DNA from: Acidimicrobiales bacterium
Lineage (GTDB): Bacteria > Actinomycetota > Acidimicrobiia > Acidimicrobiales > Bog-793
Direction: 5' to 3'
Assembly (NCBI GenBank): GCA_035294085.1
Contig: DATGLP010000028.1
Span: forward strand, 1-55,156
DNA: 55,156 nucleotides
Below, in pieces: positions 38,559 through 51,970 of the stretch (the first letter of the stretch is position 1; each line of letters starts with the position of its first letter). The translations under genes were made by a program, and so were the position numbers. The notes below the pieces were generated by a model. It was not told the DNA's origin, searched no databases, and saw nothing but the letters and a program-made list of their open reading frames with translations.

Positions 38559-39668
38559 TCAGGGCCAGGCGAGGCGGGCCACCTCGGCCACGAGCTTGAG
38601 CTTGGCTCGCTGGTCGGCTTCGCTCAGCGGGTTGCCGGCGATCTCGGAGGCGAAACCGCACTGAGGAGAGATCGCGAGTTGCTCGCGCGCGAAGTGGCGC
38701 GCCGCCTCGTCGATGCGGCGCAGGAGCGCATCGGTCCGCTCGAGCTCCGGTCGCTTCGTCGTGACGAGCCCGAGGACCGCCACCTTGTCGTCGGGCAGGT
38801 CGGCGAGCGGCTCGAAGGAGCCGGAGCGCTCGTCGTCGTACTCGAGGAGGAACCGTTGGAAGGCGGTCGCCCGCCTGAAGACGGCCTTCGAGATGGCCTC
38901 GTAGCCGCCGCTGCTGCGCCACCTGCCCCGGCTGTTGCCGCGGCACAGGTGTATGCCGAAGGTGACGCCGGGCACGCCCTCGACAATCCGGTTGAGCAAG
39001 TCGACGCCGTCGGTGAGGATCCGGTCCGGATCGGCACCGGCATCGGCGAAGAAACGGCGGCCCTCCTCGTCGACGAGCTTCGCGAGGTCCGGGGCGTCGA
39101 TCTGAATGTAGGTGCACCCGAGCGCCGCGAGGGCCTCCACCTCGGCGCGGGTGACCACGGCGAGATCTTCGTAGAGCTCGAAGGTGTCCGGGTAGACCGA
39201 CGGCGTGTAGCGCGGATGCCACAGCAGCGTCAGGGTCATGGGACTGACGAGCGTCACCTTGACGGGCCTCGCGGCCCGCGCCCGGGCGTACACGAACTCC
39301 TCGGTGACGAGCGATCGGCGGGGCCGCACCCTGCCGGTGACGGCGAGGGTCCACTCCGCAACCTGCTGCTCGTCGGACCCGCCCTCCCCGTGCCACACGA
39401 CGCGCTGTCCCGGCTCGGGCGTCCGGGTGATGCCCTCCACGGCCTCGGCCACCGAGTCGATGAAGATGCTCCGCCGCAGCTCCCCATCCGTCACGACGTC
39501 GACGCCGGCCTCCTCCTGCAGGGCGATCGCGTCGTCGACGGACCGGTCCTCGATCCGCTTGAACGCCGCCGCGCTGAGGCGACCGGCCTCGTAGGAGGCT
39601 CGTGCCTGCTTCAGCGCCGGCGAGCGCAGGAGCGAACCGACGACCTCCGCCCGGTAGCTAGCTGCCAT
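38559..39668 (-). CDS. MetE-like (cobalamin-independent methionine synthase II family) protein
   Basis: TIM-barrel protein of 369 residues, corresponding to the C-terminal catalytic half of MetE. That group includes methyltransferases and epoxyalkane:coenzyme M transferase-like enzymes. It begins RAEVVGSLLRSPALKQAR (the family's VGSxxRP-like start), with DVVTDGELRRS near 60, QIDAPDLA near 200, FGIHLCRGNSRG with the zinc-ligand His and Cys near 245, and PQCGFASEIAGNPLS with the second Cys near 345. The ATG has GGAGGGCG eight bases upstream. There is no N-terminal MetE half, so it may use a small thiol or corrinoid partner. It is isolated between two decayed intervals. Confidence 0.9.
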   Translation of the reverse strand: MAASYRAEVVGSLLRSPALKQARASYEAGRLSAAAFKRIEDRSVDDAIALQEEAGVDVVTDGELRRSIFIDSVAEAVEGITRTPEPGQRVVWHGEGGSDEQQVAEWTLAVTGRVRPRRSLVTEEFVYARARAARPVKVTLVSPMTLTLLWHPRYTPSVYPDTFELYEDLAVVTRAEVEALAALGCTYIQIDAPDLAKLVDEEGRRFFADAGADPDRILTDGVDLLNRIVEGVPGVTFGIHLCRGNSRGRWRSSGGYEAISKAVFRRATAFQRFLLEYDDERSGSFEPLADLPDDKVAVLGLVTTKRPELERTDALLRRIDEAARHFAREQLAISPQCGFASEIAGNPLSEADQRAKLKLVAEVARLAWP

Positions 39669-40542
39669 GCCCAGACGCCCTCCTGCACTCGGTCGACGGC
39701 CGCCGCCGGCTCGACGGCGTTGGGGATGCACCGAGCGCGCTCGTCGGCGGTCCACCGCCCGCGCGTCCTCGCGCCCAGTACCTCGCGATGCCAGACGGGG
39801 CGGGAGAGCGGCCGTACGACGACGCACCCGGCGCACTCGCTCGTGGCGAGGCACCGTCGCTGACGGGCGCTGCAAGGGGTGGCACGAGCCCTCTCGTCCC
39901 TTCGGGATGCGAGCACACCGCAGCGTAGTAGAAGGCGCCTGGCCGGCGCCCTCGTGTCAGCTCGTCGGTGGGTCCCACCGGCCGGAGTGCGAGCGATGCA
40001 GTCCCCTCCGCGTCGGCGCGCCTCGGTCGTGCGCCGACGCGTCGAGGGACGTCGTACCGGGCTCCTGCAGGCGGGCGGGCGCGACGGCGCGTCGCGACGC
40101 CGCCCTGCCAGGCAGGCCCGCACTACCCGGGCGACGAGACCGGCGCATCGACCAGCTGCCACGCGAGGAACGCCACAGCGTGGACGCGGCGGTCGGCCGT
40201 CGCACGGAACCAGCCCTCGCGAGAGCAGGCGAGAGCAGCGGCGCGGCTCCCCTCGGCACGCACGCGGGGAATCGGGACGACACCATGGCCTCGGAGGACT
40301 GGCGGCCGGCACCCGACGTCGCCGCGTCGCCCAGGTCGCCAGGCGCGCCTTGCCGGACGCACGCGACGAGCACGCAAGGTCGGCGTCGCAGGTACCGGCC
40401 GAGGTCGCGCGCCGCCCGGCTGCCGGCGACGCCGACCACGAGCCGAGCGACCGGCAGGTCCTGCGGTAGCCCGCGACCGCGACGCTCGCGCCGGGCGGCA
40501 CGCCGCTCCCCCGGAACGTCGCGGCCGCGCGTGGCGCGGCGC
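39669..40542. other. Gene-poor interval upstream of the fluoride riboswitch
   Basis: I find no convincing gene in 874 bases. On the minus strand near 40135-40230 the string EGWFRATADRRVHAVAFLAW reads like the end of a real protein, and near 40370-40440 RLVVGVAGSRAARDLGRYLR reads similarly in another frame. Together they may be a decayed gene of unknown family. Confidence 0.5.
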
Positions 40543-40548
40543 TATCGT
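40543..40548 (+). promoter_or_regulatory. Candidate -10 box TATCGT of the fluoride-riboswitch operon
   Basis: TATCGT ends five bases before the first aptamer stem at 40553, so transcription would begin right at the riboswitch. No good -35 is visible, although GGAAC occurs at 40513-40517, too far away for a standard pair. Confidence 0.45.
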
Positions 40549-40552
40549 GGAC

Positions 40553-40624
40553 CCGCCGGATGAGGCTCCGGCGGGCGACCGGGTTCCGGTCGCTCGAACC
40601 GCCACCAGGCTGATGGCCTCTACG
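40553..40624 (+). ncRNA. Fluoride (crcB-motif) riboswitch
   Basis: The conserved core is present. Stem P1 CCGCCGG/CCGGCGG (40553-40559 with 40568-40574) encloses the loop ATGAGGCT. An extra hairpin GCGACCGG-GTT-CCGGTCGC at 40575-40593 follows. Then comes AACCGCC (40597-40603) and GGCTGATGGCCTCTAC (40608-40623), the hallmark 3' part. GAGGC in the P1 loop (40562-40566) can pair with GCCTC (40616-40620) to make the pseudoknot of the fluoride aptamer. The topology matches the well-studied Thermotoga aptamer, apart from the inserted hairpin. It lies about 20 bases before the ribosome binding site of a hydrogenase-4-like operon. Confidence 0.88.
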
Positions 40625-40642
40625 CACGGACGTTCGTGTCGT

Positions 40643-40655
40643 GGAGGTGGCGGTG
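40643..40655 (+). promoter_or_regulatory. Ribosome binding site and GTG start, complementary to an aptamer strand
   Basis: GGAGG at 40643-40647 stands five bases before the GTG at 40653, which decides this start over the upstream GTG at 40641. GGTGGCGGT at 40646-40654 is an exact reverse complement of ACCGCCACC at 40598-40606, the 5' side of aptamer stem P3 and its loop. Aptamer folding and RBS masking are therefore mutually exclusive, as expected of a translational ON switch. Confidence 0.65.
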
Positions 40656-41615
40656 GCGGTAGACCTGGCGCCGGTCGAGATCCAGGCCCTCCAGGTGCTC
40701 ACGATCGCCGCGTGCGCGCCGCTCGTGAGCGGCGCGATCGCCCACCTCGAGGCCCGCCTCCAGGGACGCCGCGGGCCGCGGATCCTCCAGCCCTACTACG
40801 ACCTCTCGAAGCTGTTCCACAAGGAGACGCTGATCCCGGCCGATGCGAGCTGGGCGTTCGTCGTCGGCCCCCTCCTCGCCTTCACCTGCTACCTCGTCGT
40901 CCCGCTCCTCATCCCGGTGCTGACGGCCTACCCGCTGCCCTTCGGCTACCTGGGCGACATCCTCGGCGGCGGGTTCATCCTGGGCCTGGCGGGATTCGCC
41001 CTGGCGGTGGCCGCCGCGGAGACCGGCAGCCCCTACGCCCAGCTCGGCAGCAGTCGCGCGATGAGCTTCGGCGCGCTGATCGAGCCGTCGATCCTGTTCG
41101 TCACGTTCACGGTCGCCCTCGTCACCACGACCGACCTGCCGTACTTCGAGGCGGCAGCGGCTCGCGCCTCGCTCGGCCAGGCGCTCCGCCCCGCGCACCT
41201 GCTCGCGGCGATCGCCTTCTTCCTCGTCGTGCTCAGCGACACCGGGCGCATCCCCGTCGAGACGCACACGGGCACCCTCGAGTTCGGGATGATCGACGAG
41301 GCACGGACGCTCGAGCACTCCGGCCCCCTCCTCGCGCTGGCGAGGTGGGGGTCGGCCATGAAGCAGCTGATCCTCTACACGATCCTCGTCGACGTCTTCG
41401 CTGCACCCTGGGGCCTCGCCGGCACGACCGCGCTCGGAGCAGTCCTCGTCGCCATCCCAGTCCTGCTCGCCAAGGCGCTCGGCGTCGGCGCGATCTTCGC
41501 CGTCCTCGACAACAGCTTCTCGAAGCTGCGCCTGTTCAAGATCACCGAGTTCATGGCGGGGGCCTTCCTGGTGGCGGTGCTCGCCGTCCTGGCCCTGTAC
41601 CTGGGGGGCGGCTAG
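40653..41615 (+). CDS. hyfC: Hydrogenase-4 subunit C / NuoH-like membrane subunit
   Basis: Membrane subunit (320 residues, about eight helices) that couples the peripheral arm to the ion-pumping arm in complex I-like enzymes. The NuoH signatures RGPRILQPYYDLSKLFHKE near 40-58 and the acidic E-channel residues in AAAETGSPYAQLGSSR and DTGRIPVETHTGTLEFGM are conserved, with IDEARTLEHSGP just after. This is the first gene of a six-gene operon and is directly under the fluoride riboswitch. Because the acidic channel residues are kept, I expect it is still under selection for proton movement although the redox subunits of this complex are degenerate. Confidence 0.92.
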   Translation: MAVDLAPVEIQALQVLTIAACAPLVSGAIAHLEARLQGRRGPRILQPYYDLSKLFHKETLIPADASWAFVVGPLLAFTCYLVVPLLIPVLTAYPLPFGYLGDILGGGFILGLAGFALAVAAAETGSPYAQLGSSRAMSFGALIEPSILFVTFTVALVTTTDLPYFEAAAARASLGQALRPAHLLAAIAFFLVVLSDTGRIPVETHTGTLEFGMIDEARTLEHSGPLLALARWGSAMKQLILYTILVDVFAAPWGLAGTTALGAVLVAIPVLLAKALGVGAIFAVLDNSFSKLRLFKITEFMAGAFLVAVLAVLALYLGGG

Positions 41616-42307
41616 TGCCCGCCCTCGGCCTCCTCGGCGCGGCGACGTTTGCTCCCCCCGCCCGATCGGGAGGCGCCGACGCCATCGCGCTCGTCGTGCT
41701 GCTCACCCAGTTCGCCATGCTGCGCGCGCCGTTGGCGCGCTCGCAGGTGCGCCTCTACGCGTGGCAGTCGACGGCGGTGAGCGCGCTCGCCATCTTCCTC
41801 GCGTCGACCCGGCACGCGCCTGACCTGTACGCGCTCGCCGCGCTGTCCTTCAGCCTCAAGGCGGTTCTCGTCCCCCGCGTCGTGCTGCGCCTCCTGCGAG
41901 ACGCGCCTGCCGACGTCGCGACGAGCAGCCGCCTCGGCGTCGCGACGACGGTGCTCGTCGCCCTGGCGCTCTCGGTGTTCGGGTTCTTCGTCGTGGGCAG
42001 GGTGCCGATCGGCGGCGGGTCGCTGCCCGCTCCCGCCCTCGGCATGGCGGCGGCCGTCGTCCTCGTCGCCTTCCTCCTCGCCGTCGTGCGCGCCGACGTC
42101 GTGTCCCAGGCGGTGGGCTTCTTCTCGCTCGAGAACGGGGTCTCGGTGGCAGGCCTCGTCGTGGCGAGCGGGCTTCCGCTCCTCGTGGAGGTCGCGTTCC
42201 TCTTCGACCTGCTCGCCGCCGCCGTCGCCTTCGGGATCTTGATGCGAGCACACCACAGCCGCGCCAAGACGCTGTCGGCGGACGTGCTCGGCCGGCTGCG
42301 AGGGTAG
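41615..42307 (+). CDS. hyfE: Hydrogenase-4 subunit E / NuoK-like membrane subunit
   Basis: Small multi-helix subunit of 230 residues. The N-terminal half is a run of helices (ADAIALVVLLTQFAMLRAP, LYAWQSTAVSALAIFLAS) and the C-terminal half carries the NuoK-like stretch VVSQAVGFFSLENGVSVAGLVV, with a conserved membrane Glu in SLENG. It ends in a short basic tail. The GTG start overlaps the last base of the upstream TAG (TAGTG), so it depends on coupling. HyfE-type subunits are found in hydrogenase-4, not in ordinary complex I, and so point to the Hyf/Ehr family. Confidence 0.88.
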   Translation: MPALGLLGAATFAPPARSGGADAIALVVLLTQFAMLRAPLARSQVRLYAWQSTAVSALAIFLASTRHAPDLYALAALSFSLKAVLVPRVVLRLLRDAPADVATSSRLGVATTVLVALALSVFGFFVVGRVPIGGGSLPAPALGMAAAVVLVAFLLAVVRADVVSQAVGFFSLENGVSVAGLVVASGLPLLVEVAFLFDLLAAAVAFGILMRAHHSRAKTLSADVLGRLRG

Positions 42308-42309
42308 CG

Positions 42310-43764
42310 GTGAGCTGGGACCTCTTCGCCGTCGCGATCGTTCCGGTCGCGGCCGCCGTCGCCTGCTGGCTCGTCCCGCCGTCGGCAGGACGAGCCCTGA
42401 CCGTCACGAGCGGCGCGGCGAGCTTCGCCCTCACCCTGCTGCTCGTGCCGGCGAGCTCGGTGACGGCTGCAGGGGGCTGGCTGCGAGTCGACGCCCTCTC
42501 GACGGTGTTCCTCGTGGCCGTGAGCTTCCTGTACGCCGCCACGGGGCTGTTCGCGCTCGGATACCTACGGCCGGCGGGCCATCGCGACGCCCGGGCGCGC
42601 TACAGCCGGCGATTCTTCGCCGGCCTGAACCTGTTCGCCTGGTCGATGTCGATGGCCCTCGTCGTGAACGAGCTCGCCCTCCTCTGGGTTGCGATCGAGG
42701 TGACGACGGTCGTCTCGGCGCTGCTCGTCGCCATCGATGAGACGGACGTGGCGACGGAGGCCGCCTGGAAGTACCTGCTCCTCGCCTCCATGGGCCTCGG
42801 AGTCGCCCTGCTCGCGACCGTGGTCATGTACGACGCCGGCAGCGTTGTCCTCGGGGGCTCCTACGACCTCTTCTACCCGAAGCTGCTCGCTGCAGCCGGG
42901 CGCTTCCCGGCGCAGGCGGTGCGGCTGTCCTTCGTGCTCGCCCTCCTCGGCTACGGCACCAAGATGGGGCTCGTCCCGATGCACACGTGGCTCCCCGACG
43001 CGCACTCCGAGGCGCCGACACCCGTCTCGGCGCTGCTGTCGGGTTCGCTGCTCGCCGTGAGCTTCTACGCCATCCTGCGCTTCTACCAGATCGCCGTCCG
43101 GGCCATCGGACCCGCGTTCCCCCGCGGCGCCCTGCTCGCCTTCGGCGTCGCCTCCCTCGGCCTCGCCGCTCTCTACCTCGCCGGGCAGCGGGACCTGAAG
43201 CGGCTCCTCGCCTACTCGAGCATCGAGCACATGGGCGTGCTCGCCGTCGGGATGAGCTTCGGGGCCCCCGTGGCGGTGGTCGGCGTGCTCCTCCACGTGC
43301 TCGCACACGCCGCCGCCAAGGGGACCGCCTTCTTCGGTGCCGGAAGCGTGCTACGCAAGTTCGGGACGAAGGACATGACCCGCATCCGAGGCGGGCTGGG
43401 CGCCCTCCCCTGGAGCGGCCCGATGCTGGTGCTCGCCGTGCTCGGCCTGTGCGCCCTGCCGCCGTCGGGGATCTTCCGCAGCGAGTTCCTCATCGTCTCC
43501 GGCGGCTTCGGCGACCCCGCGGACGCGGCGACGGCGGTCCTCGTCGTGCTCGTGACCCTCGCGAGCCTCGGTCTCACCTGGCACGCCTCGCAGACGATGC
43601 TCGAGGCGACGCCGGGGGGCGTCGTACCCGGCGAGACGAGCCGTCTCATCGTGGCTGCGATGCTCGTCGGACTCGTGGCGCTGACGCTCCTCGGCCTCCA
43701 CCCGCCGGGCCAGCTCTCGGACCTGCTCACTCGGGCCGCGCGCGAGCTCGGGAGCGGCACGTGA
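42310..43764 (+). CDS. hyfF: Hydrogenase-4 subunit F / Mrp-type antiporter-like subunit
   Basis: Proton-translocating subunit with about 13-14 helices (484 residues), of the NuoL/M/N family. The channel residues are in place: membrane Glu in LLWVAIEVTTVVSA near 120, Lys in LGYGTKMGLVPMHTWLPDAH near 220, and the central Lys/His region in LKRLLAYSSIEHMG and HVLAHAAAKGTAFFGAG. This intact proton path contrasts with the lost redox ligands in the G and I subunits. It starts two bases after hyfE, and its stop overlaps the next gene as GTGA. Confidence 0.93.
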   Translation: MSWDLFAVAIVPVAAAVACWLVPPSAGRALTVTSGAASFALTLLLVPASSVTAAGGWLRVDALSTVFLVAVSFLYAATGLFALGYLRPAGHRDARARYSRRFFAGLNLFAWSMSMALVVNELALLWVAIEVTTVVSALLVAIDETDVATEAAWKYLLLASMGLGVALLATVVMYDAGSVVLGGSYDLFYPKLLAAAGRFPAQAVRLSFVLALLGYGTKMGLVPMHTWLPDAHSEAPTPVSALLSGSLLAVSFYAILRFYQIAVRAIGPAFPRGALLAFGVASLGLAALYLAGQRDLKRLLAYSSIEHMGVLAVGMSFGAPVAVVGVLLHVLAHAAAKGTAFFGAGSVLRKFGTKDMTRIRGGLGALPWSGPMLVLAVLGLCALPPSGIFRSEFLIVSGGFGDPADAATAVLVVLVTLASLGLTWHASQTMLEATPGGVVPGETSRLIVAAMLVGLVALTLLGLHPPGQLSDLLTRAARELGSGT

Positions 43765-45254
43765 GCGCCGTCGCGACCTCGGCGCGCGTCGCGGCCGGGG
43801 AGCTGGCCGAGACCGTCGCCGACGAGGTCCGCGCCGGAGGGCGCTTCGCCGGCCTGTTTGCGACCGGCCGTGCGGGCGGCTCGACGACGCTTCGCGCCGT
43901 GGTGGCGCGCGCTGGCTCCTTGGTGCTCACCGAGGCCGAGCTCGGCCCGGGCGAGTCGCGCTACCCCGCCCTCACACCCCTCGTCCCCGCCGCCTCCTGG
44001 TACGAGCGCGAGATCCATGACCTCTTCGGCATCGAGCCGAGCGGCCACCGCCGGCTCGATCCCCTCGTCCTGCCGCTTCGCGCCGGCTGTCACCGTCCGC
44101 GGCCCGGCGACCCGGCCGGGACGGACCGCATCGAGCTCGACGTTGCCCCGCTGCCAGCGCACGTGCGCGGCGAGGGCGTGTTCACGATCCCCTACGGTCC
44201 GGTGCGCTCGGGGGTCTTCGAGAGCGTCGAGTACCTCGTCGAGACGCGAGGCGAGGAGATCTCCCACCTGCGCACCCGCGTGTACCACAAGCATCGGGGC
44301 CTGGACCGTCGCTTCAGCGAACTCGGCGTCGACGACGCGCTCCTCCTCGCGGAGCGCGTCGAGGGTACGGCCGCGGTCGCTCACGCCCTCGCCTTCAGCC
44401 AGGCCATCGAGGAGCTCGCCGGGATCGAGCCGCCCCGGTCCGCGCAGCTCCTGCGGGTGCTGCACGCCGAGCTCGAGCGCGTCGCGGTGCACCTCGACTC
44501 CGTCATCCGCCACGCTGAGGGCGCCGGCCAGGCGGTCGCCTACGCCCGGATGTCGCGACACCGCGAGGAGCTGCTCCGGCTGCGCGCCCGCCTGTGCGGC
44601 CACCGCTTCGGGCGGGGGGTCGTCGTCCCGGGCGGCGTGACCGGACCGGCGCGCGCCGAGCCCGAGCAAGCCTTGGCGCACGTGAACGCGCTCGAGGCCG
44701 CGATCGCCGAGGACGCGCGGGCGCTCATGGCAACGCCCTCGTTCCTCGACCGGCTGCGCGGGACCGGGGTGCTGCCTCGCGACGTCGCGGCCGCGCACGG
44801 CGCCCTCGGGCCGGTCGGGCGCGCCTCGGGCCAGGGCGAGGACGTGCGCGTCCAGCGACCCTACGGCGCCTACCGCCACCTCGGCTGCGAGCCCGCCGCG
44901 ACCGACGCCGAGGGCGACGCGCTCGCGCGGCAGCACGTCCGGCTCGCCGAGATCCGGCAGGCCTTCCACCTCGCGCGTCAGGCGCTCGAGGAGCTGGTGG
45001 ACGGCGCGAGCTCGACGTGGCGAGTCGCCGTCCCCCCGGTGAGCGGCGTCGCCGTCGCCTCCGTCGAAGCGCCCCAGGGCGAGCTCCTCTACCTCGTCGA
45101 GGCGGAGGGGGGCAGGCTGGCACGGGTCAAGCCTCGCTCCGCCTCCTTCCACAACCTCGCACTGCTCCCACGGGCATTCGGCGGCGACATCTTCACGGAC
45201 TTCGTGTTCATCGAGGCCAGCTTCGGACTCTCGATCGCGGGGGTGGCCGGCTGA
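43761..45254 (+). CDS. Hydrogenase-4 large-subunit homologue (NuoC-NuoD fusion) lacking the NiFe ligands
   Basis: Fusion of 497 residues. A NuoC-like domain (about 1-125) ends in SWYEREIHDLFGIEPSGHRRLDPLVL (shown here by its WYEREIHDLFGIEPSGH core). A NuoD/hydrogenase large-subunit domain (about 135-497) includes VYHKHRGLDRRFSEL. The L1 motif that binds nickel, normally ERVCGxCxxxHALA, reads ERVEGTAAVAHALA, so both Cys are gone. The C-terminal L2 motif, normally DPCxxC, is replaced by DFVFIEASFGLSIAGVAG, again without Cys. It therefore cannot hold a NiFe centre and resembles Ehr (hydrogenase-related) large subunits. It begins with GTGA coupling to hyfF. Its job could be structural, quinone-related or ligand-sensing. 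Confidence 0.9.
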   Translation: MSAVATSARVAAGELAETVADEVRAGGRFAGLFATGRAGGSTTLRAVVARAGSLVLTEAELGPGESRYPALTPLVPAASWYEREIHDLFGIEPSGHRRLDPLVLPLRAGCHRPRPGDPAGTDRIELDVAPLPAHVRGEGVFTIPYGPVRSGVFESVEYLVETRGEEISHLRTRVYHKHRGLDRRFSELGVDDALLLAERVEGTAAVAHALAFSQAIEELAGIEPPRSAQLLRVLHAELERVAVHLDSVIRHAEGAGQAVAYARMSRHREELLRLRARLCGHRFGRGVVVPGGVTGPARAEPEQALAHVNALEAAIAEDARALMATPSFLDRLRGTGVLPRDVAAAHGALGPVGRASGQGEDVRVQRPYGAYRHLGCEPAATDAEGDALARQHVRLAEIRQAFHLARQALEELVDGASSTWRVAVPPVSGVAVASVEAPQGELLYLVEAEGGRLARVKPRSASFHNLALLPRAFGGDIFTDFVFIEASFGLSIAGVAG

Positions 45255-46054
45255 TGGCCTGGGTCTGGCGCGGCCTGCGCGACGGCATCGTCACGACGCG
45301 CTACCCGCGTCGCCCCGACGACTACGGCGAGGGCTTCCACGGCACGATCGTCGTCGTCGACCACGGCATCGCCCACGGCGACGCGAGCCACCGCGCGGCG
45401 GCGAGCGCCGCCTTCCGCTGCCCGACCGGTGCGATCGCCGAGTCGGGAGGGGAGGTGCGCGTCGATCGCGGACGCTGCATCCTCTGCGGCCGGTGCGTCG
45501 CCGCTCGGCCCGACGTCTTCGCCTTCTCGAGCTCGCTCGAGGCGGCGGCGGTCGCGCGCACGGCCCTCGTCGTCCCGCAGACCGAGGAGGACGACGGCGC
45601 GCTCGTCGCGGTGCGTGAGGCGCTCCAGCGACGGGTGCGGGCCCTGCGCAGGTCGATCCACGTCCGCCACGTCGACGCCGGCTCGGACGGCTCGGAGGAG
45701 TGGGAGGTCGCCGCCTTGACCAACCCGATCTACGACGTCCAGCGCCTCGGGATCTTCTTCACCGCGTCGCCGCGGCACGCCGACGTGCTCCTCGTCACCG
45801 GCGCCGGCACCCTCGCCATGGCCGAGCCGTTGCGCGCGACCTTCGAGGCCATGCCGGATCCGAAGGTCGTCATCGCCGCGGGGACCGACGCAACCAGCGG
45901 CGGCCTCCTCGCTCCTTCGTACGCGACCTCGGCGGGCGTCGATTCGGTCGTCCCGGTGGACGTCTGGGTGCCCGGTTCGCCGCCCAGCCCGTTCAGCCTG
46001 CTCCACGGCATCCTCCTCGGCGTCGGCCTGCTCGGGAGCTCGAGGCCGCGATGA
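45254..46054 (+). CDS. Ferredoxin/NuoB-like (HyfI) fusion lacking the proximal Fe-S cluster
   Basis: Fusion of 266 residues. The N-terminal ferredoxin region (about 45-95) keeps FRCPTGAI and RGRCILCGRC, the four Cys that build one [4Fe-4S] cluster of a 2[4Fe-4S] domain; the Cys of the other cluster are missing. The C-terminal NuoB/HycG domain (about 130-265) aligns well (NPIYDVQRLGIFFTASPRHAD, VVPVDVWVPGSPPSP), but its four cluster ligands are changed: GSCxxC reads GSDGSE, the GxCxxxGG Cys reads GTDATSGG, and VPGCPP reads VPGSPP. Electron transfer to a hydrogenase-type site is therefore excluded. It starts at TGATG, one base into the preceding stop. Confidence 0.9.
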   Translation: MAWVWRGLRDGIVTTRYPRRPDDYGEGFHGTIVVVDHGIAHGDASHRAAASAAFRCPTGAIAESGGEVRVDRGRCILCGRCVAARPDVFAFSSSLEAAAVARTALVVPQTEEDDGALVAVREALQRRVRALRRSIHVRHVDAGSDGSEEWEVAALTNPIYDVQRLGIFFTASPRHADVLLVTGAGTLAMAEPLRATFEAMPDPKVVIAAGTDATSGGLLAPSYATSAGVDSVVPVDVWVPGSPPSPFSLLHGILLGVGLLGSSRPR

Positions 46055-48084
46055 CCGAGGCGCTCCTCGTCGCGGCCGCCCTCGTCCTCGCGCTCGGCGC
46101 AACCTTCGACCTCGCCAGTCGGTCCCGGCGAGGGTGGCGGCGCACCCTCCCCTTCGCCGCCGGCGCGGCGGGCAGCGCCCTCGCGACGGCAGCGGGCGTG
46201 GCGATGGTGCTCGGCCCGGCGCGCACCGCCGAGCTCGGCTCGGCGCTCGGCACGGGGGCGACCTCGCTCCGGCTCGATCCGCTGGCCGGCCTCTTCCTCA
46301 CCCTCGTCGGCGGTCTCGGCGTCGCGGTCTCGGCCTGCCTCGTCAGCTGGTGCGGACCGGCCGGGCGTGTCCCGGCGCGTGGCACCGGTGCCTCCTACCT
46401 GCTGCTCCTCGCGGCGGCGGGCGGCACGATCCTCGCCGGGGATGCCTTCACCTTCCTCTTCGGCTTCGAGGCCCTGACCCTGGCGTCCTACCTCCTCGTC
46501 GGCTCGGGAGGGCGCAGCGGACGGGTGCGGTCGGCCTGGGCGACGCTCGGGGCCGGCAAGCTGAGCGGGGCGGCGCTGCTCCTCGGGCTCCTCCTGCTCG
46601 CCGCGCAGGCGCACGACGGCGCCTTCGCGTCCTGGTCTCGGCTCCCCTCCGGCGCGGGGCGCGACGCCGCCTTCGCCCTCGTCGTCGTCGGCTTCGCCGC
46701 GAAGGTCGGGCTCGTCCCGTTCGAGGTGTGGATCCCGCTCGGCTACCCCGGTGCGCCCGGTCCGGTACGCGCCGCGCTCGCCGGGGTCGCGGCGAACGTC
46801 GGCTTCTACGGGCTGTGGCGCTTCCTCGGCCTGCTGGGTCCGCCGCCTGCCTGGCTCGCCGTGGCGCTGCTCGTCCTCGGAGGAACGAGCGCGCTCCTCG
46901 GCAGCGCCTTCGCCAGCGTGCAGTCCAGGCTCGACCGGACCATCGCCTACTCGAGCGTCGAGAACGCAGGCCTGATCACCGTCGGCTACGGCGTGGCCCT
47001 GGCCGGAGGCGCCACGCGCAACGTCGAGGTCGTCGCGGCCGGGCTCGTGGCGGCGACCCTCCAGGTCCTCGCCCACGGCGTCGCCAAGTCGTCGCTGTTC
47101 GCCTCGGCCGCCTTCTTCGAGGCCGACTTCGGCACCGAGGAGCTCGAGTCGCTGCGCGGCATCCACCGGAGCCACCCCGTCAGCGCAGCTGCCTTCTCGC
47201 TCGGCTCGGTCACCTTGGCCGGGCTGCCACCGACGATCGGCTTCGTCTCCGAGTGGTTCATCCTGGAGGCGCTGCTGCAGCAGTTCCGGATCCACGACCT
47301 GGCGCTGCGCCTCGCGATGGCCCTCGCAGCCGCGCTGGTGGCGCTGAGCGTCGGGGTGGCGCTGCTGTGCTTCGCCCGGCTCCTTGGCCTCGTCGTCCTC
47401 GGGCGCCACGACCGACGCCGGCGCGCCAGCCCGCCGCTCGACGGCGGCGCGGCGGGGCGAGGCGGCCTCCTCCTCCTGGCATCGGCGTGCCTCGGGCTCG
47501 CCGCGGCGGCACCGTGGGTGCTGCGCTTCGTCGCCGACGGCCTCGCTCCCGTCGTCCCCCGAACGGTGGTGCTGCGCGCGCTCAAGACGCCTTGGGTGAT
47601 CCAGCCCGTCGTCTCGGGATTCTCGAGCCTGTCGCCGTCGTGGCTCGCGCTCGTCCTGCCCGCCGGCTTCGCCGCGGTGAGCCTGGTGGCGCTCGCGCTC
47701 TCGCGCGGTAGCCTGGCCCGTCCCAGGCGGGTGCCGGCGTGGCGCTCGGCGACGCCGGGCGTCGCGGGGCCGACCGGCTACGGCGCCTTCGGGTACGCGA
47801 ACATCCTGCGCTACGTGCTCGCGAACGTCCTCGGCCCGCGGCACACGGTTGCGGCATCCACGGACGCCCTCGAACCTGCTGGAGCCGCCGGATCGGCCCA
47901 CCTCGAGGTGCGCACCGACCTCGTGGAGCCTGTCGAAGCCCACCTCTACCGACCTGCGCACGCGGCGTGGCTGCGGCTGGCGGCAGCCGCGACGCGGCTC
48001 CAGTCCGGCCACCTGTTCGCCTACGTCGGGTACCTCCTAGGGGTGCTGTGCACGCTGATCGCAATCGTCGCGGCCATGCGGTAG
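46051..48084 (+). CDS. hyfB: Hydrogenase-4 subunit B / NuoL-like antiporter subunit
   Basis: Large antiporter-like subunit of 677 residues with about 15-16 helices. The proton-path residues are present: Glu in FLFGFEALTLASYLLV near 145, Lys in VVGFAAKVGLVPFEVWIP near 215, SRLDRTIAYSSVENAG near 290 and Lys in LAHGVAKSSLFASAAFF near 345. The last third (about 500-677) has extra hydrophilic stretches and a terminal helix (LFAYVGYLLGVLCTLIAIVAAM), like HyfB/HycC. It starts as ATGA over the previous stop and is the last gene of the operon. Confidence 0.93.
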   Translation: MTEALLVAAALVLALGATFDLASRSRRGWRRTLPFAAGAAGSALATAAGVAMVLGPARTAELGSALGTGATSLRLDPLAGLFLTLVGGLGVAVSACLVSWCGPAGRVPARGTGASYLLLLAAAGGTILAGDAFTFLFGFEALTLASYLLVGSGGRSGRVRSAWATLGAGKLSGAALLLGLLLLAAQAHDGAFASWSRLPSGAGRDAAFALVVVGFAAKVGLVPFEVWIPLGYPGAPGPVRAALAGVAANVGFYGLWRFLGLLGPPPAWLAVALLVLGGTSALLGSAFASVQSRLDRTIAYSSVENAGLITVGYGVALAGGATRNVEVVAAGLVAATLQVLAHGVAKSSLFASAAFFEADFGTEELESLRGIHRSHPVSAAAFSLGSVTLAGLPPTIGFVSEWFILEALLQQFRIHDLALRLAMALAAALVALSVGVALLCFARLLGLVVLGRHDRRRRASPPLDGGAAGRGGLLLLASACLGLAAAAPWVLRFVADGLAPVVPRTVVLRALKTPWVIQPVVSGFSSLSPSWLALVLPAGFAAVSLVALALSRGSLARPRRVPAWRSATPGVAGPTGYGAFGYANILRYVLANVLGPRHTVAASTDALEPAGAAGSAHLEVRTDLVEPVEAHLYRPAHAAWLRLAAAATRLQSGHLFAYVGYLLGVLCTLIAIVAAMR

Positions 48085-48408: not shown

Positions 48409-49902
48409 TCACGGGCGCGCCCAGCGGGCGCTTCGCGCCACGGCCTCCTGCCACCGGCGGTAGGCGGACTCGCGCTCGTCGTCGCTGGCATTCGGCTCGA
48501 AGCGTCCGGCGCTCCGACGGAGGCGAGCGACGTCCTCGCGACGCCAGATCCCCGCGACGATCCCCGCGAGGTAGGCGACGCCGAGAGCGGTCGCCTCCCG
48601 GCTCGCGGCGACGTCGACCGGGATCCCGAGCGCGTCGGCCTGGAACTGCATGAGCCACCGGTTGGCCGTGGCTCCCCCGTCGGCTCGCAGCTCGCGCACC
48701 GGGGATCCGGCGCGGGCCATCGCCTCGAGAACGTCCCGGGTGCGCCAGGCGATGCCCTCGAGCACCGCGCGCGCGACGTGCGCGCGCGTCGTCGCCCGGG
48801 TCACCCCGAGGAGCGTGCCCCGCGCGCCCGGGTCCCAGTAGGGAGCCCCGAGCCCTGCAAGTGCCGGGACGAACCAGACGTCGTCGTTGCCGGGGAGGCT
48901 CGCGGCGAGCTGCTCGGTCTCCGCCGCGGCCCGGATCACACCCAGCCCGTCGCGCAGCCACTGCACGGCCGAGCCGGTGCTGAGGATCGAGCCCTCGAGC
49001 GCGTAGGTCGAGCGCCCCGCCCGCTCGCCGACGGCGACGGTGCACAGCAGCTCGCCGCCCCCTGCGACGCGTCCCTCGCCAGCGTGGCCGAGCACGAACG
49101 AGCCGGTCCCGTACGTGCTCTTGGCCAGCCCAGGCTCGAGGCAGGCCTGCGCGAAGAGCGCGGACTGCTGGTCGCCGAGGACGGCGAGGATCGGCACGGA
49201 CTCACCTGCGAGGTGCGCGTCGGGTCGCTCGCCCGTGGGCGTCCCCGACGGGACGATCGTCGGGAGCACCTCCGGGGGGATGCCGAAGAGATCGAGCAGG
49301 TCGGGGGCGAAGGCGAGCGCTCGGAGGTCGAGGAGGAGGGTGCGCGAGGCGTTCGTCGGTTCGGTGACGTGGCACGCGCCCCCGGTGAGCTTCCATACCA
49401 GCCAGGCGTCGATGGTGCCGAAGCAGATCTCGCCGCGGCGCGCGCGCTGCACGAGCAGCGGATCGTGGCGGAAGCTCCAGGCGAGCTTCGTTGCCGAGAA
49501 GTACGGGTCGACGGTCAGCCCGGTGCGGTCGGCGATCGTCTCTGCCACGCCGCTCGCGCGGAGCTCTTCGCAGATCGCCGTGCTCCGGCGATCCTGCCAG
49601 ACGATGGCCCGCTGAACGGGCCGACCCGTCGACCGCTCCCAGAGGACGGTGGTCTCTCGCTGGTTCGCGATCCCGATGCCCGCGAGGTCGCGAGCGCTGC
49701 GGCCGGCCTGGTCGAGAACCTCGAACGCGCACTCGAGGACCGACCGCCAGATCTCCTCGGGATCGTGCTCGACCCAGGATGGGTGCGGGTAGTACTGACG
49801 GATCTCCCGACTGCAGCGCGCGAGCACCCCGCCCGCCGGATCGACGAGGAGGGCACGGGTGCTCGTCGTGCCCTGATCGATGGCGAGCAGGAGCGATCTC
49901 AC
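48409..49902 (-). CDS. glpK: Glycerol kinase
   Basis: Phosphorylates glycerol to sn-glycerol 3-phosphate with ATP. It has 497 residues, standard for FGGY kinases of this type. LAIDQGTTSTRALLVD is the N-terminal ATP-binding loop, IANQRETTVLWERSTGRPV and IVWQDRRS follow, GLTVDPYFSATKLAW marks the glycerol site, and GDQQSALFAQACLEPGLAKSTYGTGSF lies near 265. ALEGSILSTGSAVQWLRDGL follows in the second ATPase lobe. The GTG start overlaps the glpD stop as GTGA, giving a tight glpD-glpK unit for glycerol use. Confidence 0.96.
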   Translation of the reverse strand: MRSLLLAIDQGTTSTRALLVDPAGGVLARCSREIRQYYPHPSWVEHDPEEIWRSVLECAFEVLDQAGRSARDLAGIGIANQRETTVLWERSTGRPVQRAIVWQDRRSTAICEELRASGVAETIADRTGLTVDPYFSATKLAWSFRHDPLLVQRARRGEICFGTIDAWLVWKLTGGACHVTEPTNASRTLLLDLRALAFAPDLLDLFGIPPEVLPTIVPSGTPTGERPDAHLAGESVPILAVLGDQQSALFAQACLEPGLAKSTYGTGSFVLGHAGEGRVAGGGELLCTVAVGERAGRSTYALEGSILSTGSAVQWLRDGLGVIRAAAETEQLAASLPGNDDVWFVPALAGLGAPYWDPGARGTLLGVTRATTRAHVARAVLEGIAWRTRDVLEAMARAGSPVRELRADGGATANRWLMQFQADALGIPVDVAASREATALGVAYLAGIVAGIWRREDVARLRRSAGRFEPNASDDERESAYRRWQEAVARSARWARP

Positions 49903-51611
49903 CGGGGCGGCGGGACCTGGGCCGAGCGCACGATCGCCTCCGCCGAGGCGTCGTCGGGTGCCTGCGCCGCCGCCATCTCGGCGCGTGCGGCGGCACGGTA
50001 GGCCTCGGCCTCGGCGCGCTGGCGCGCATCCGACCAGCCGAGCGGCCCGGCCAGGAGCCTGGCCACCTCGTCGGCGAGGGCGCTGCCTCGATCGGGCAGC
50101 TCGAGCGCGACGCGGGTCCGGCGCTCGAGCACGTCGTCGACGTGGCGAGCCCCCTCGTGGGTCGCCGCGTACACGACCTCGGCGCACGTGTAGGCAATAC
50201 GGCCGTCGAGGCGCCGGCGCAGCGCCGGGTCGCGCTCGCCGAGCTCCAGCACCTCCGACGCCAGCGCGCCGTAGCGGCTGAGCAGCCGGTCGAGCTCCGG
50301 CCCGGGCACGTCGGCCGATCCCGCTGCACCCCTGAGCGCGGCTCGCGCGCCGTCCAGACCGGCGGCGCCGACCAGCTCGATCTCCGCGGTGCGCGACGGT
50401 CCAGCGCGAAGGCGCGCCGAGCCCACGGCGGCGTCGATCGCGTCTCGCGCCATGACGCGGTAGGTGGTGAGCTTCCCGCCGGAGACGACGACGAAGCCCG
50501 GCGCAGGGACGTCGACGACGTGCTCACGCGACACGTGCGCCGTGTCGGCGCGCGCGTGGCCCGCGAGCGGCCTGATCCCGGCGAAGACGGCGACGACGTG
50601 CCCGCGCTCGACGGGGGGATCGACGACCCTGTTGACCCAGTCGACGAGGTACTCGACGTCGGCGCGGCACGCCACCGGCCGATCGACCTCGAGGCGCCAC
50701 GGCGTGTCGGTCGTGCCGACGAGCCAGTGGCCGTTCCACGGCACGGCCAGGAGCACGCTCTTGTCGGTGGGGACGATGAGCGCGCTCGACGAGGCGATGC
50801 AGTCGCGCTCGAGGACGACGTGCACGCCCTTCGACGGCTGCAAGCGGGACCCGGCGCGCGCGAACGGTGAGATCTGGTCGCCCCACGGTCCGCTCGCCAC
50901 GACGACGGATCGGGCACGCACGTCGAAGGAGCCGTCTTGATCGGTCAGCTGCAGGCGGGCCTCGACGGTGCCACCCCGACCGATCCGCAGCTCGGTTACC
51001 GCCACCCGGTTCGCTGCGATCGCGCCGTAGGACACGGCGGTGCGAACGAGCGTCGAGACGAGCCTCGCGTCGTCGACCTGGGCGTCGTAGTACTGCACCG
51101 CACCGATCAGCCCGTCGGCGCGCAGGGCGGGCGCGACGTCGAGCGCTTCGGCGCGCGAGAGCGGGCGGTGGCGCGGGACGCCAGCCGCCGCGCTCGGCGA
51201 GCGCGCCAGGAGGTCGTAGAGGGACACGCCGATCCCGACGAGCGCTCGCTCGCTCGGCCGCCGGAGCGGGTAGAGGAAAGGCGTCAGGCGAACGAGGTGC
51301 GGCGCCAGCTGCAGGAGACGTGCGCGCTCGACGAGCGCCTCCCGCACGAGGCGGAAGTCGAGCATCTTGAGGTAGCGCAGCCCGCCGTGCACGAGCTTGC
51401 TCGAACGGCTGGACGTTCCCGCTGCCCAGTCCTGCGCCTCGACGACGGCGACCGAGAGCCCGCGCGAGGCAGCGTCGAGTGCCGCTCCAGCACCGACGAC
51501 GCCGCCTCCGACGACGAGGACGTCGAGCAGCCGCCCGTCGGCGAGCGCGCCGACGTCACGCTGCCACTGCTGCGGTGACAGGGCCGAATGCGCCATCGCG
51601 CCATCCACCAT
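49899..51611 (-). CDS. glpD: Glycerol-3-phosphate dehydrogenase, FAD-dependent
   Basis: Oxidises glycerol 3-phosphate to dihydroxyacetone phosphate and passes electrons to the quinone pool. It has 570 residues. The FAD-binding Rossmann motif VVGGGVVGAGAALDAASRG is near residue 32, followed by SSRSSKLVHGGLRYL, GVHVVLERDC, the DUF-like FAGIRPLAG region near 350, SREHVVDVPAPGFVVVSGGKLTTYR near 375-400 (here given by its GGKLTTYR core), and a C-terminal helical domain. The ATG at 51611 was chosen for the GAGAGG upstream; an in-frame ATG 15 bases later is possible. It is divergent from a MIP channel gene. Confidence 0.95.
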   Translation of the reverse strand: MVDGAMAHSALSPQQWQRDVGALADGRLLDVLVVGGGVVGAGAALDAASRGLSVAVVEAQDWAAGTSSRSSKLVHGGLRYLKMLDFRLVREALVERARLLQLAPHLVRLTPFLYPLRRPSERALVGIGVSLYDLLARSPSAAAGVPRHRPLSRAEALDVAPALRADGLIGAVQYYDAQVDDARLVSTLVRTAVSYGAIAANRVAVTELRIGRGGTVEARLQLTDQDGSFDVRARSVVVASGPWGDQISPFARAGSRLQPSKGVHVVLERDCIASSSALIVPTDKSVLLAVPWNGHWLVGTTDTPWRLEVDRPVACRADVEYLVDWVNRVVDPPVERGHVVAVFAGIRPLAGHARADTAHVSREHVVDVPAPGFVVVSGGKLTTYRVMARDAIDAAVGSARLRAGPSRTAEIELVGAAGLDGARAALRGAAGSADVPGPELDRLLSRYGALASEVLELGERDPALRRRLDGRIAYTCAEVVYAATHEGARHVDDVLERRTRVALELPDRGSALADEVARLLAGPLGWSDARQRAEAEAYRAAARAEMAAAQAPDDASAEAIVRSAQVPPPR

Positions 51612-51970
51612 ACGACGGCGCCTCTCGGCCCGGCCGTGCCGCCAGCCGAGCCGCCCGGCGCCGGCCACGATGACCAGACGGAGCCTCAGCCCAAGGCGAC
51701 GCGGGCGACTTCAAGCGCTCACGGGACGAGATGATGGTGCTGCACCGACGCAGCGCGAGGATGCGCTGCGCCGACGAGCAGTTCCACCGAGTGCGGGGCG
51801 GGCGCCACCTGCCAGCCCCGCGGGCTGTCCTCGAAGCCGTCGTCACCCCTGAGGTGGGACCACGGAGGAGTAGGTGCCGCGCCGAGCGCTCCCCGATTCG
51901 GACCGAGGTTCGACGCGATCCGGGACATCCTCCGGCCCCCAGCAGGGAGAGGAGGGCGTAGCGTCGTGGC
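51612..51970. other. Divergent regulatory interval between glpD and the MIP channel gene
   Basis: These 359 bases hold no convincing gene. TAGCGT at 51959-51964 ends six bases before the channel's ATG and is a likely -10 box. No clear glycerol-regulator operator stands out by eye. A minus-strand open frame through 51719-51900 (SPRGWQVAPAPHSVELLVG) has no ribosome binding site and I leave it uncalled. Confidence 0.5.
51959..51964 (+). promoter_or_regulatory. -10 box TAGCGT of a leaderless MIP-channel transcript
   Basis: TAGCGT is identical to the box before the M20 peptidase and is followed by six bases and ATG. An alternative is translation from a leader, because GGAGAGGAGG lies upstream of the box at 51946-51955. 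Confidence 0.45.

Follow-up and report, generated by a model that had tools for sequence, protein, structure and literature searches.

In the window analysed here (contig C28, DATGLP010000028.1, 55,156 nucleotides, from the 2.42-Mb genome of an Acidimicrobiales bacterium, assembly GCA_035294085.1), a fluoride (crcB) riboswitch aptamer immediately precedes six genes homologous to subunits of hydrogenase-4 (Hyf). The reading that we favour, and consider rather probable, is that this riboswitch-controlled operon encodes a fluoride-induced ion-translocating complex that is not a hydrogenase. The riboswitch and the complex are genuinely paired, in many genomes and in a single clade; that the complex moves ions under fluoride stress is our best inference from the sequences. 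The label 'formate hydrogenlyase' (FHL) for genes of this kind is probably a misnomer, which may hide a fluoride-stress machine not recognised so far. The elements of the operon are as follows.

40538..40551, + strand: probable promoter -10 region (CTATCGT), a short fixed distance 5' of P1, deduced from homologues
40552..40629, + strand: fluoride (crcB) riboswitch aptamer with an extra P2 hairpin (RF01734, 22.0 bits; core shared by homologues; fold z -5.1)
40614..40648, + strand: predicted expression platform, in which GCCUCUACGCACG pairs with CGUGUCGUGGAGGU and masks the Shine-Dalgarno sequence GGAGG at 40643-40647 (minimum-free-energy fold; covariation in 53 homologues)
40653..41615, + strand: hyfC/NuoH-like membrane subunit (PF00146, E=2.3e-31)
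41615..42307, + strand: hyfE-like membrane subunit, start GTG 41615 (NF008556, hydrogenase 4 membrane subunit, E=2.2e-21)
42310..43764, + strand: hyfF-like antiporter-type subunit (NF005044, E=5e-107; invariant residues)
43761..45254, + strand: hyfG-like (NuoC+D) large subunit without NiFe ligands (PF00346, E=8.5e-37; 7z0s_E; ligand survey)
45254..46054, + strand: fused hyfH-hyfI (PF13370 and PF01058; AlphaFold2 model)
46051..48084, + strand: hyfB-like antiporter-type subunit (NF005086, E=3.8e-105; invariant residues)

Catalytic site, clusters and membrane arm

Homologues of the operon came from a search of the phylum that covered 396 genomes and from a single scan across 84,980 species genomes, which together provided a set of 80 named actinobacterial loci; loci with G handles were counted separately. 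The gene order is C-E-F-G-HI-B wherever the operon is complete. The nearest relatives are metagenome-assembled genomes (MAGs) of the Acidimicrobiaceae type, with approximately 60-74% identity in G, and the cultured carriers include Amycolatopsis, Sciscionella, Actinocatenispora, Streptantibioticus, Actinacidiphila, Aciditerrimonas, Leifsonia and Microbacterium. The initial annotation described six overlapping genes, hyfC, E, F, G, I and B, and all six frames stand; the fifth gene, in contrast, is an H-I fusion, and the starts of C and E had to be corrected. The hyfC frame is open from GTG 40641, but GTG 40653 is better placed, behind the GGAGG sequence, and is probably the start. In the fifth gene, residues ~1-110 form a HyfH-like ferredoxin domain and the remainder is HyfI/NuoB-like; the AlphaFold2 model of the fusion (mean predicted local distance difference test score 82.6) matches subunit J of the membrane-bound hydrogenase (MBH; 6cfw_J, TM-score 0.84 by target length) and also FHL subunit 7. 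The best solved relatives of G are FHL subunit 5 (structure match 7z0s_E) and the MBH alpha subunit.

The ligands of the NiFe site are missing throughout. The first Ni cysteine of G is replaced by Glu in 81 of 81 sequences (the 80 homologues and the window), and the ligand set RxCGxC plus DPCxxC, absent in the window, is kept in none of the 80 homologues; because these ligands are all missing, the complex is neither a NiFe hydrogenase nor an FHL. The four cluster cysteines of the I domain are likewise replaced, by Asp (75/75), Glu or Asp (73/75), Asp (73/74) and Ser (68/74). Thus, the catalytic and proximal Fe-S ligands, four cysteines each in G and I, are gone, as the initial annotation had it, and a search for close homologues that retain the NiFe ligands in the same operon context found none. 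Its wording that the operon has lost its redox centres is nevertheless too strong, given that the H domain keeps the CP cysteine and CxxCxxC in all 78-79 readable sequences, which is enough for one [4Fe-4S] cluster. By the usual wiring of ferredoxins, we take this to be the second, N6b-like cluster that adjoins the missing proximal one. The His and Tyr that complex I structures show at the quinone site of NuoD have no counterpart in G; given this, and the loss of the cluster adjacent to the cavity, an electron route of the complex I kind is unlikely.

The two losses differ in extent. L047 and L049 keep the I-domain cysteines, L043-L046 keep some of them, and the members from Burkholderia retain all of these cysteines along with both H motifs, so that the loss of the NiFe site is common to the clade and the loss of the cluster is confined to a part of it. 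Decay of a dying gene was considered as an account of the I-domain cysteine loss and rejected: the replacement residues and the H cysteines are nearly invariant in the 75-79 homologues.

The ion path appears to have been kept in its entirety, as the initial annotation proposed for the membrane arm. Glu130, Lys218, His333, Lys337 and Glu392 of F and Glu143, Lys221, His345, Lys349 and Glu404 of B are invariant in the 65-68 readable homologues, and the charged membrane residues of C and E are conserved almost as strictly. The invariance of these residues indicates that selection still acts in full on the membrane arm of a complex whose catalytic site is lost.

The fluoride aptamer and its recurrence

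The aptamer of the window is a divergent one. An Rfam scan of the window at the gathering threshold (34 bits for RF01734) gave no fluoride riboswitch match; with E-value scoring, the model matches positions 40561-40629 of the + strand over its full length (1-64 of 64; 22.0 bits, E=3.9e-4), so that the covariance-model hit expected near 40553-40624 is found at this level and not at the gathering one. It is the single full-length RF01734 match in the genome (E=9.2e-4), the next best being fragments of 14-37 bases. The structural elements of the class are all present, namely P1, AACCGCC-P3, the GCUGAUGG..CUAC core and the pseudoknot, both strands of which (GAGGC and GCCUC) are intact. P1 is formed by CCCGCCGG and CCGGCGGG (40552-40575), with AUGAGGCU in the loop, and differs from the P1 of the Rfam alignment; between P1 and AACCGCC lies an extra P2 hairpin, GCGACCGG-GUU-CCGGUCGC, followed on the 3' side by CGAACCGCC-ACCA-GGCUGAUGGCCUCUAC. 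The score under the gathering cut-off is explained by this hairpin, which the Rfam alignment bypasses by placing P1 on the wrong strands. The fold of the leader is 5.1 standard deviations better than that of shuffled sequences. The aptamer core is shared by close relatives, and at the equivalent place cultured relatives reach 43-51 bits; therefore, the element in the window is not a chance occurrence. Most close homologues also have a TAnnnT-like motif at a similar spacing (for example, CTATGGT, ATATAAT and CTACCAT), and the -10 region was assigned by this recurrence, not by scoring against a promoter model.

In the relatives, aptamers were called by a strict pattern, Rfam and inspection of the leaders, and not by a custom covariance model, because automatic alignment with MAFFT misplaced the aptamers of the window and L042. 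Among the 63 loci whose sequence reaches far enough ahead of C, the aptamer lies directly upstream in 57, including 41 that conform to the strict pattern, on the correct strand and 22-162 bases upstream of C, and 16 recognised by eye; the strict pattern did not occur once in 1.27 Mb of Markov sequence. L159 and L167 have the aptamer one gene further upstream, and the other leaders are without it or doubtful. Rfam matches of 43-51 bits precede C in six of the seven loci scanned from cultured strains, in Amycolatopsis, Sciscionella, Actinocatenispora, Streptantibioticus and Actinacidiphila; in Leifsonia (L202), the upstream site is recognised by pattern alone and a 50.5-bit site precedes a neighbouring gene. 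The loci L043-L047 have RF01734 matches of 36-47 bits. With the full-length match, its uniqueness in the genome and the core shared by homologues, the initial claim of a fluoride aptamer just before the operon holds, and its recurrence before homologous operons speaks for the predicted fluoride control.

The linkage extends to plasmids. In Burkholderia multivorans and B. cenocepacia plasmids, the same gene order occurs amid four and six fluoride riboswitches, respectively (47-58 bits), with inorganic diphosphatase and DUF190 as neighbours and, in B. cenocepacia, also a HAD hydrolase and crcB. A plasmid of Mycobacterium branderi likewise carries the operon amid fluoride riboswitches, with enolase, NUDIX and DUF190 genes added to the neighbourhood. 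Other plasmids (L219-L221) carry Ehr-type (energy-converting hydrogenase-related) operons, in which B precedes C-E-F-G, in unrelated contexts.

The probable direction of the switch can be read from the leader. In the minimum-free-energy fold of the window leader, GCCUCUACGCACG pairs with CGUGUCGUGGAGGU over the GGAGG ribosome site, and this hairpin and the pseudoknot are mutually exclusive because both require the same strand. In the covariation test, the Shine-Dalgarno site was fixed on GGAGG in 53 loci with pairing disregarded, since an earlier choice of the site by best pairing was biased. At positions 6-9, 162 of 212 cells are paired, compared with a mean of 121.8 and a maximum of 141 in 2000 shuffles that leave sequence kinship in place; the covarying exchanges are G-C/C-G (28/11) and also A-U/G-C. 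The covarying anti-Shine-Dalgarno hairpin implies a translational switch that fluoride would turn ON. Without fluoride, the 3' strand of the aptamer (GCCUCUACG) would pair with the Shine-Dalgarno sequence of hyfC; on fluoride binding, the same strand would enter the aptamer pseudoknot and free the hyfC ribosome site. In this way, the riboswitch would switch on translation of the six genes, whose product is a membrane complex derived from hydrogenase-4.

Relationship to known complexes and neighbouring genes

In a maximum likelihood tree of 57 large subunits (G), all riboswitch-linked sequences form one clade (support 99/97), beside an Ehr-like (Ehr/RISGD) clade (98/86) whose rows were picked by motif and gene order and not via reference sequences of named Ehr enzymes. 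The riboswitch-linked clade is separate from the RACxAC group, from the true NiFe group 4 enzymes and from NuoD. At the gathering level, RF01734 was found in none of the seven true NiFe loci and in none of the eight Ehr-type loci.

The Hyf/Hyc enzymes (group 4 NiFe) share with the window-type complex the homologous subunits C, E, F, G, H, I and B, the ion-path residues of the membrane arm and an I domain that aligns with FHL subunit 7 and MBH J. The window-type complex differs from them in that it has no NiFe ligands, no proximal cluster, a single cluster motif in H, an H-I fusion, no D, A or J subunits, a fluoride riboswitch and a clade of its own. The absence of NiFe ligands defines the Ehr complexes, which used to be named putative formate hydrogenlyase (PMC6349859, PMC12342949), and the description 'Ehr-like' in the initial annotation is apt insofar as the complex is group-4-like, has antiporter-type subunits and lacks these ligands. 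It is not an ordinary Ehr, however: its large subunit does not group with those of the Ehr type, which form a neighbouring clade and not the same one, and the gene order is its own, whereas the sampled Ehr-type loci have other orders (typically B before C-E-F-G), mostly keep the cluster cysteines in I and have no fluoride riboswitch at the gathering level. With complex I (NuoB/CD/H/L/M/N) and the Mrp antiporters, it shares the architecture of the membrane arm and the key Glu, Lys and His residues, and with complex I also an acidic residue where hydrogenases have their first Ni cysteine (the sampled NuoD sequences have Asp there). It differs from complex I by the lack of the N2 cluster, the quinone-site His/Tyr pattern and the NADH module; in the window, I contains no cluster cysteines and the operon no NuoEFG-like gene. 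Riboswitch-controlled nhaA, crcB and CLC-F operons have in common with the window operon a fluoride aptamer directly 5' of ion-transport genes; here, the aptamer has the extra P2 hairpin and precedes a multi-subunit, hydrogenase-derived complex and not a single transporter.

Other variants of the family were seen along the way. The G subunits of L060, L064, L068-L072 and L075, actinobacterial group-4 relatives, have RACxAC in place of RxCGxC and CYAC or CYSC in place of DPCxxC; this altered, cysteine-rich active site may hold a different metal centre, and no fluoride riboswitch was noticed at these loci. In L266 (G486:C35) and L251 (G467:C128), two different hyf-like complexes are adjacent, in tandem or convergent, and the tandem pair has riboswitch-like pattern matches at +3050, +12190 and +14035. 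Such pairs suggest that there are two subfamilies that differ in function.

Further genes led by riboswitches in the vicinity of the operon code for MutS domain V proteins, dynamin-like GTPases, DUF190, NUDIX and histidine phosphatase proteins. The proteins consisting of MutS domain V alone (~515 amino acids), which follow fluoride riboswitches in L192:18436-19983, L202:3555-5096, L155:14064-15611, L158:5041-6576 and L165:17208-18791, fit the reported association of mutS with crcB RNAs, yet they are short MutS-like proteins, not full MutS. Dynamin_N GTPases stand directly behind fluoride riboswitches in L171:17392-19461, L144:11572-13431, L049:3215-4990 and L120:589-2331, and likewise in the Burkholderia islands; we know of no link between bacterial dynamins and fluoride stress. 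In M. branderi, a NUDIX gene (L215:4338-4793) lies between a fluoride riboswitch and hyfC, and the aptamer would control both. In the fluoride island of the B. cenocepacia plasmid (L217; NZ_CP073671, 94097-111509), six RF01734 matches of 49-58 bits surround the complex and the diphosphatase, HAD, DUF190 and crcB genes; the plasmid is typed as conjugative. The flanks of the operon in the window, read off translations and not scanned, appear ordinary (48409-51668 and 38559-39875), with glycerol kinase and glycerol-3-phosphate dehydrogenase on one side and a MetE-like protein on the other; no fluoride genes were seen among the translations of these flanks.

Competing explanations and implications

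The association of the crcB motif with formate hydrogenlyase genes, mentioned in the initial annotation, is indeed stated in the literature: it was reported with the motif (Weinberg 2010, PMC2864571), and a 2024 review lists formate hydrogenlyase, described as oxidising formate, among the commonest targets of fluoride riboswitches (PMC11139923). A genuine FHL or hydrogenase-4, by which fluoride would induce a shift to fermentation, is compatible with these reports and with the homology of the subunits to hydrogenase-4. We give this explanation almost no credence: the operon has no formate dehydrogenase or maturation genes, the riboswitch is missing at seven true NiFe loci, and the fermentation shift cannot hold for this clade because the catalytic ligands are gone. 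The accompanying suspicion that the formate hydrogenlyase annotation is wrong is supported by the 80 homologues, none of which keeps the NiFe ligands. Even less credible is a chance aptamer match in a very GC-rich genome, with the operon unlinked to fluoride, as the window score under the cut-off might suggest; the same element occupies the same place in dozens of homologues, with up to 51 bits, and is accompanied by compensatory changes in the platform and by neighbouring fluoride genes.

An alternative to be taken seriously, although we consider it improbable, is a fluoride-induced redox-driven pump of the Ehr, Mbx or ferredoxin-complex-I type, in which an electron donor would enter at the H cluster, quinone would be reduced in the old NiFe cavity and the energy would serve to pump protons. 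Every homologue has the one [4Fe-4S] motif in H, the proximal cluster cysteines are kept in Burkholderia (L216/L217) and L047, and a coupling of redox reactions to the movement of charge has been proposed for Ehr complexes (PMC6349859). On the other hand, the branch of the window has lost the proximal ligands in all homologues, with conserved carboxylates instead, the NuoD quinone-site residues are without counterpart, and the operon encodes no donor module.

We regard as quite unlikely that the complex is a fluoride exporter proper, a third class beside Fluc and CLC-F in which the membrane arm or an H+ cycle would be directly coupled to F- removal. The genome of the window has no Fluc (PF02537), and CLC-F was rejected as its exporter, as both of its CLC proteins lack the three CLC-F signatures (GNNLI/GMGLI, GREGT/V and GEVTP, taken from PMC11139923). 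Fluc is missing in nine of 10 carrier genomes of the order, and no CLC-F signature was seen in the readable CLC loci of 17 carriers without Fluc. However, the ion-path residues are all ordinary proton-path ones, no halide site is recognisable, and many cultured carriers also possess Fluc. As a tentative and rather doubtful variant, a third class of fluoride resistance could have arisen in which the Fe-S site turned into a conserved, possibly metal-binding carboxylate site and the membrane arm replaces Fluc and CLC-F where both are missing.

Several observations count against the reading as a fluoride-induced, non-hydrogenase ion-translocating complex. The score of the window aptamer, 22.0 bits, is under the gathering cut-off of 34, and the presence of an aptamer could be judged at 63 of the 80 loci and not at the other 17. 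The invariant [4Fe-4S] motif of H would be superfluous in a pure antiporter and argues that some redox sensing or electron chemistry remains, and the intact Fe-S relay in Burkholderia means that the ancestral form may have been redox-driven. An anticorrelation with Fluc speaks for the reading: in a sample of 118 genomes of the order, nine of the 10 that have a closely similar complex lack Fluc, versus 24 of the 108 others (Fisher p=3.5e-5), or 12 of 15 versus 21 of 103 (p=1.0e-5) if every inspected C-E-F-G-HI-B locus is counted. These counts ignore ancestry and MAG incompleteness, however, and many cultured carriers combine Fluc with the complex.

We still favour the fluoride-induced ion-translocating complex. 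The complex retains the full set of ion-path residues in both of its antiporter-type subunits, as well as the charged residues of its NuoH-like one, and the most likely role of H+ (or Na+) movement is to restore pH and membrane potential upon the entry of HF, which would support or replace fluoride export. Na+/H+ antiporters rank next after exporters among the genes controlled by fluoride riboswitches (PMC11139923). No earlier description of a fluoride-linked Ehr-like complex was found in the open-access literature searched. Fluoride stress would thus offer a functional context for hydrogenase-like complexes of unassigned role, and the family may represent a relative of complex I and hydrogenases that is evolving away from redox chemistry, with Fe-S ligands giving way to conserved carboxylates. 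The cultured strains of Amycolatopsis, Streptantibioticus and Leifsonia allow this to be tested directly.

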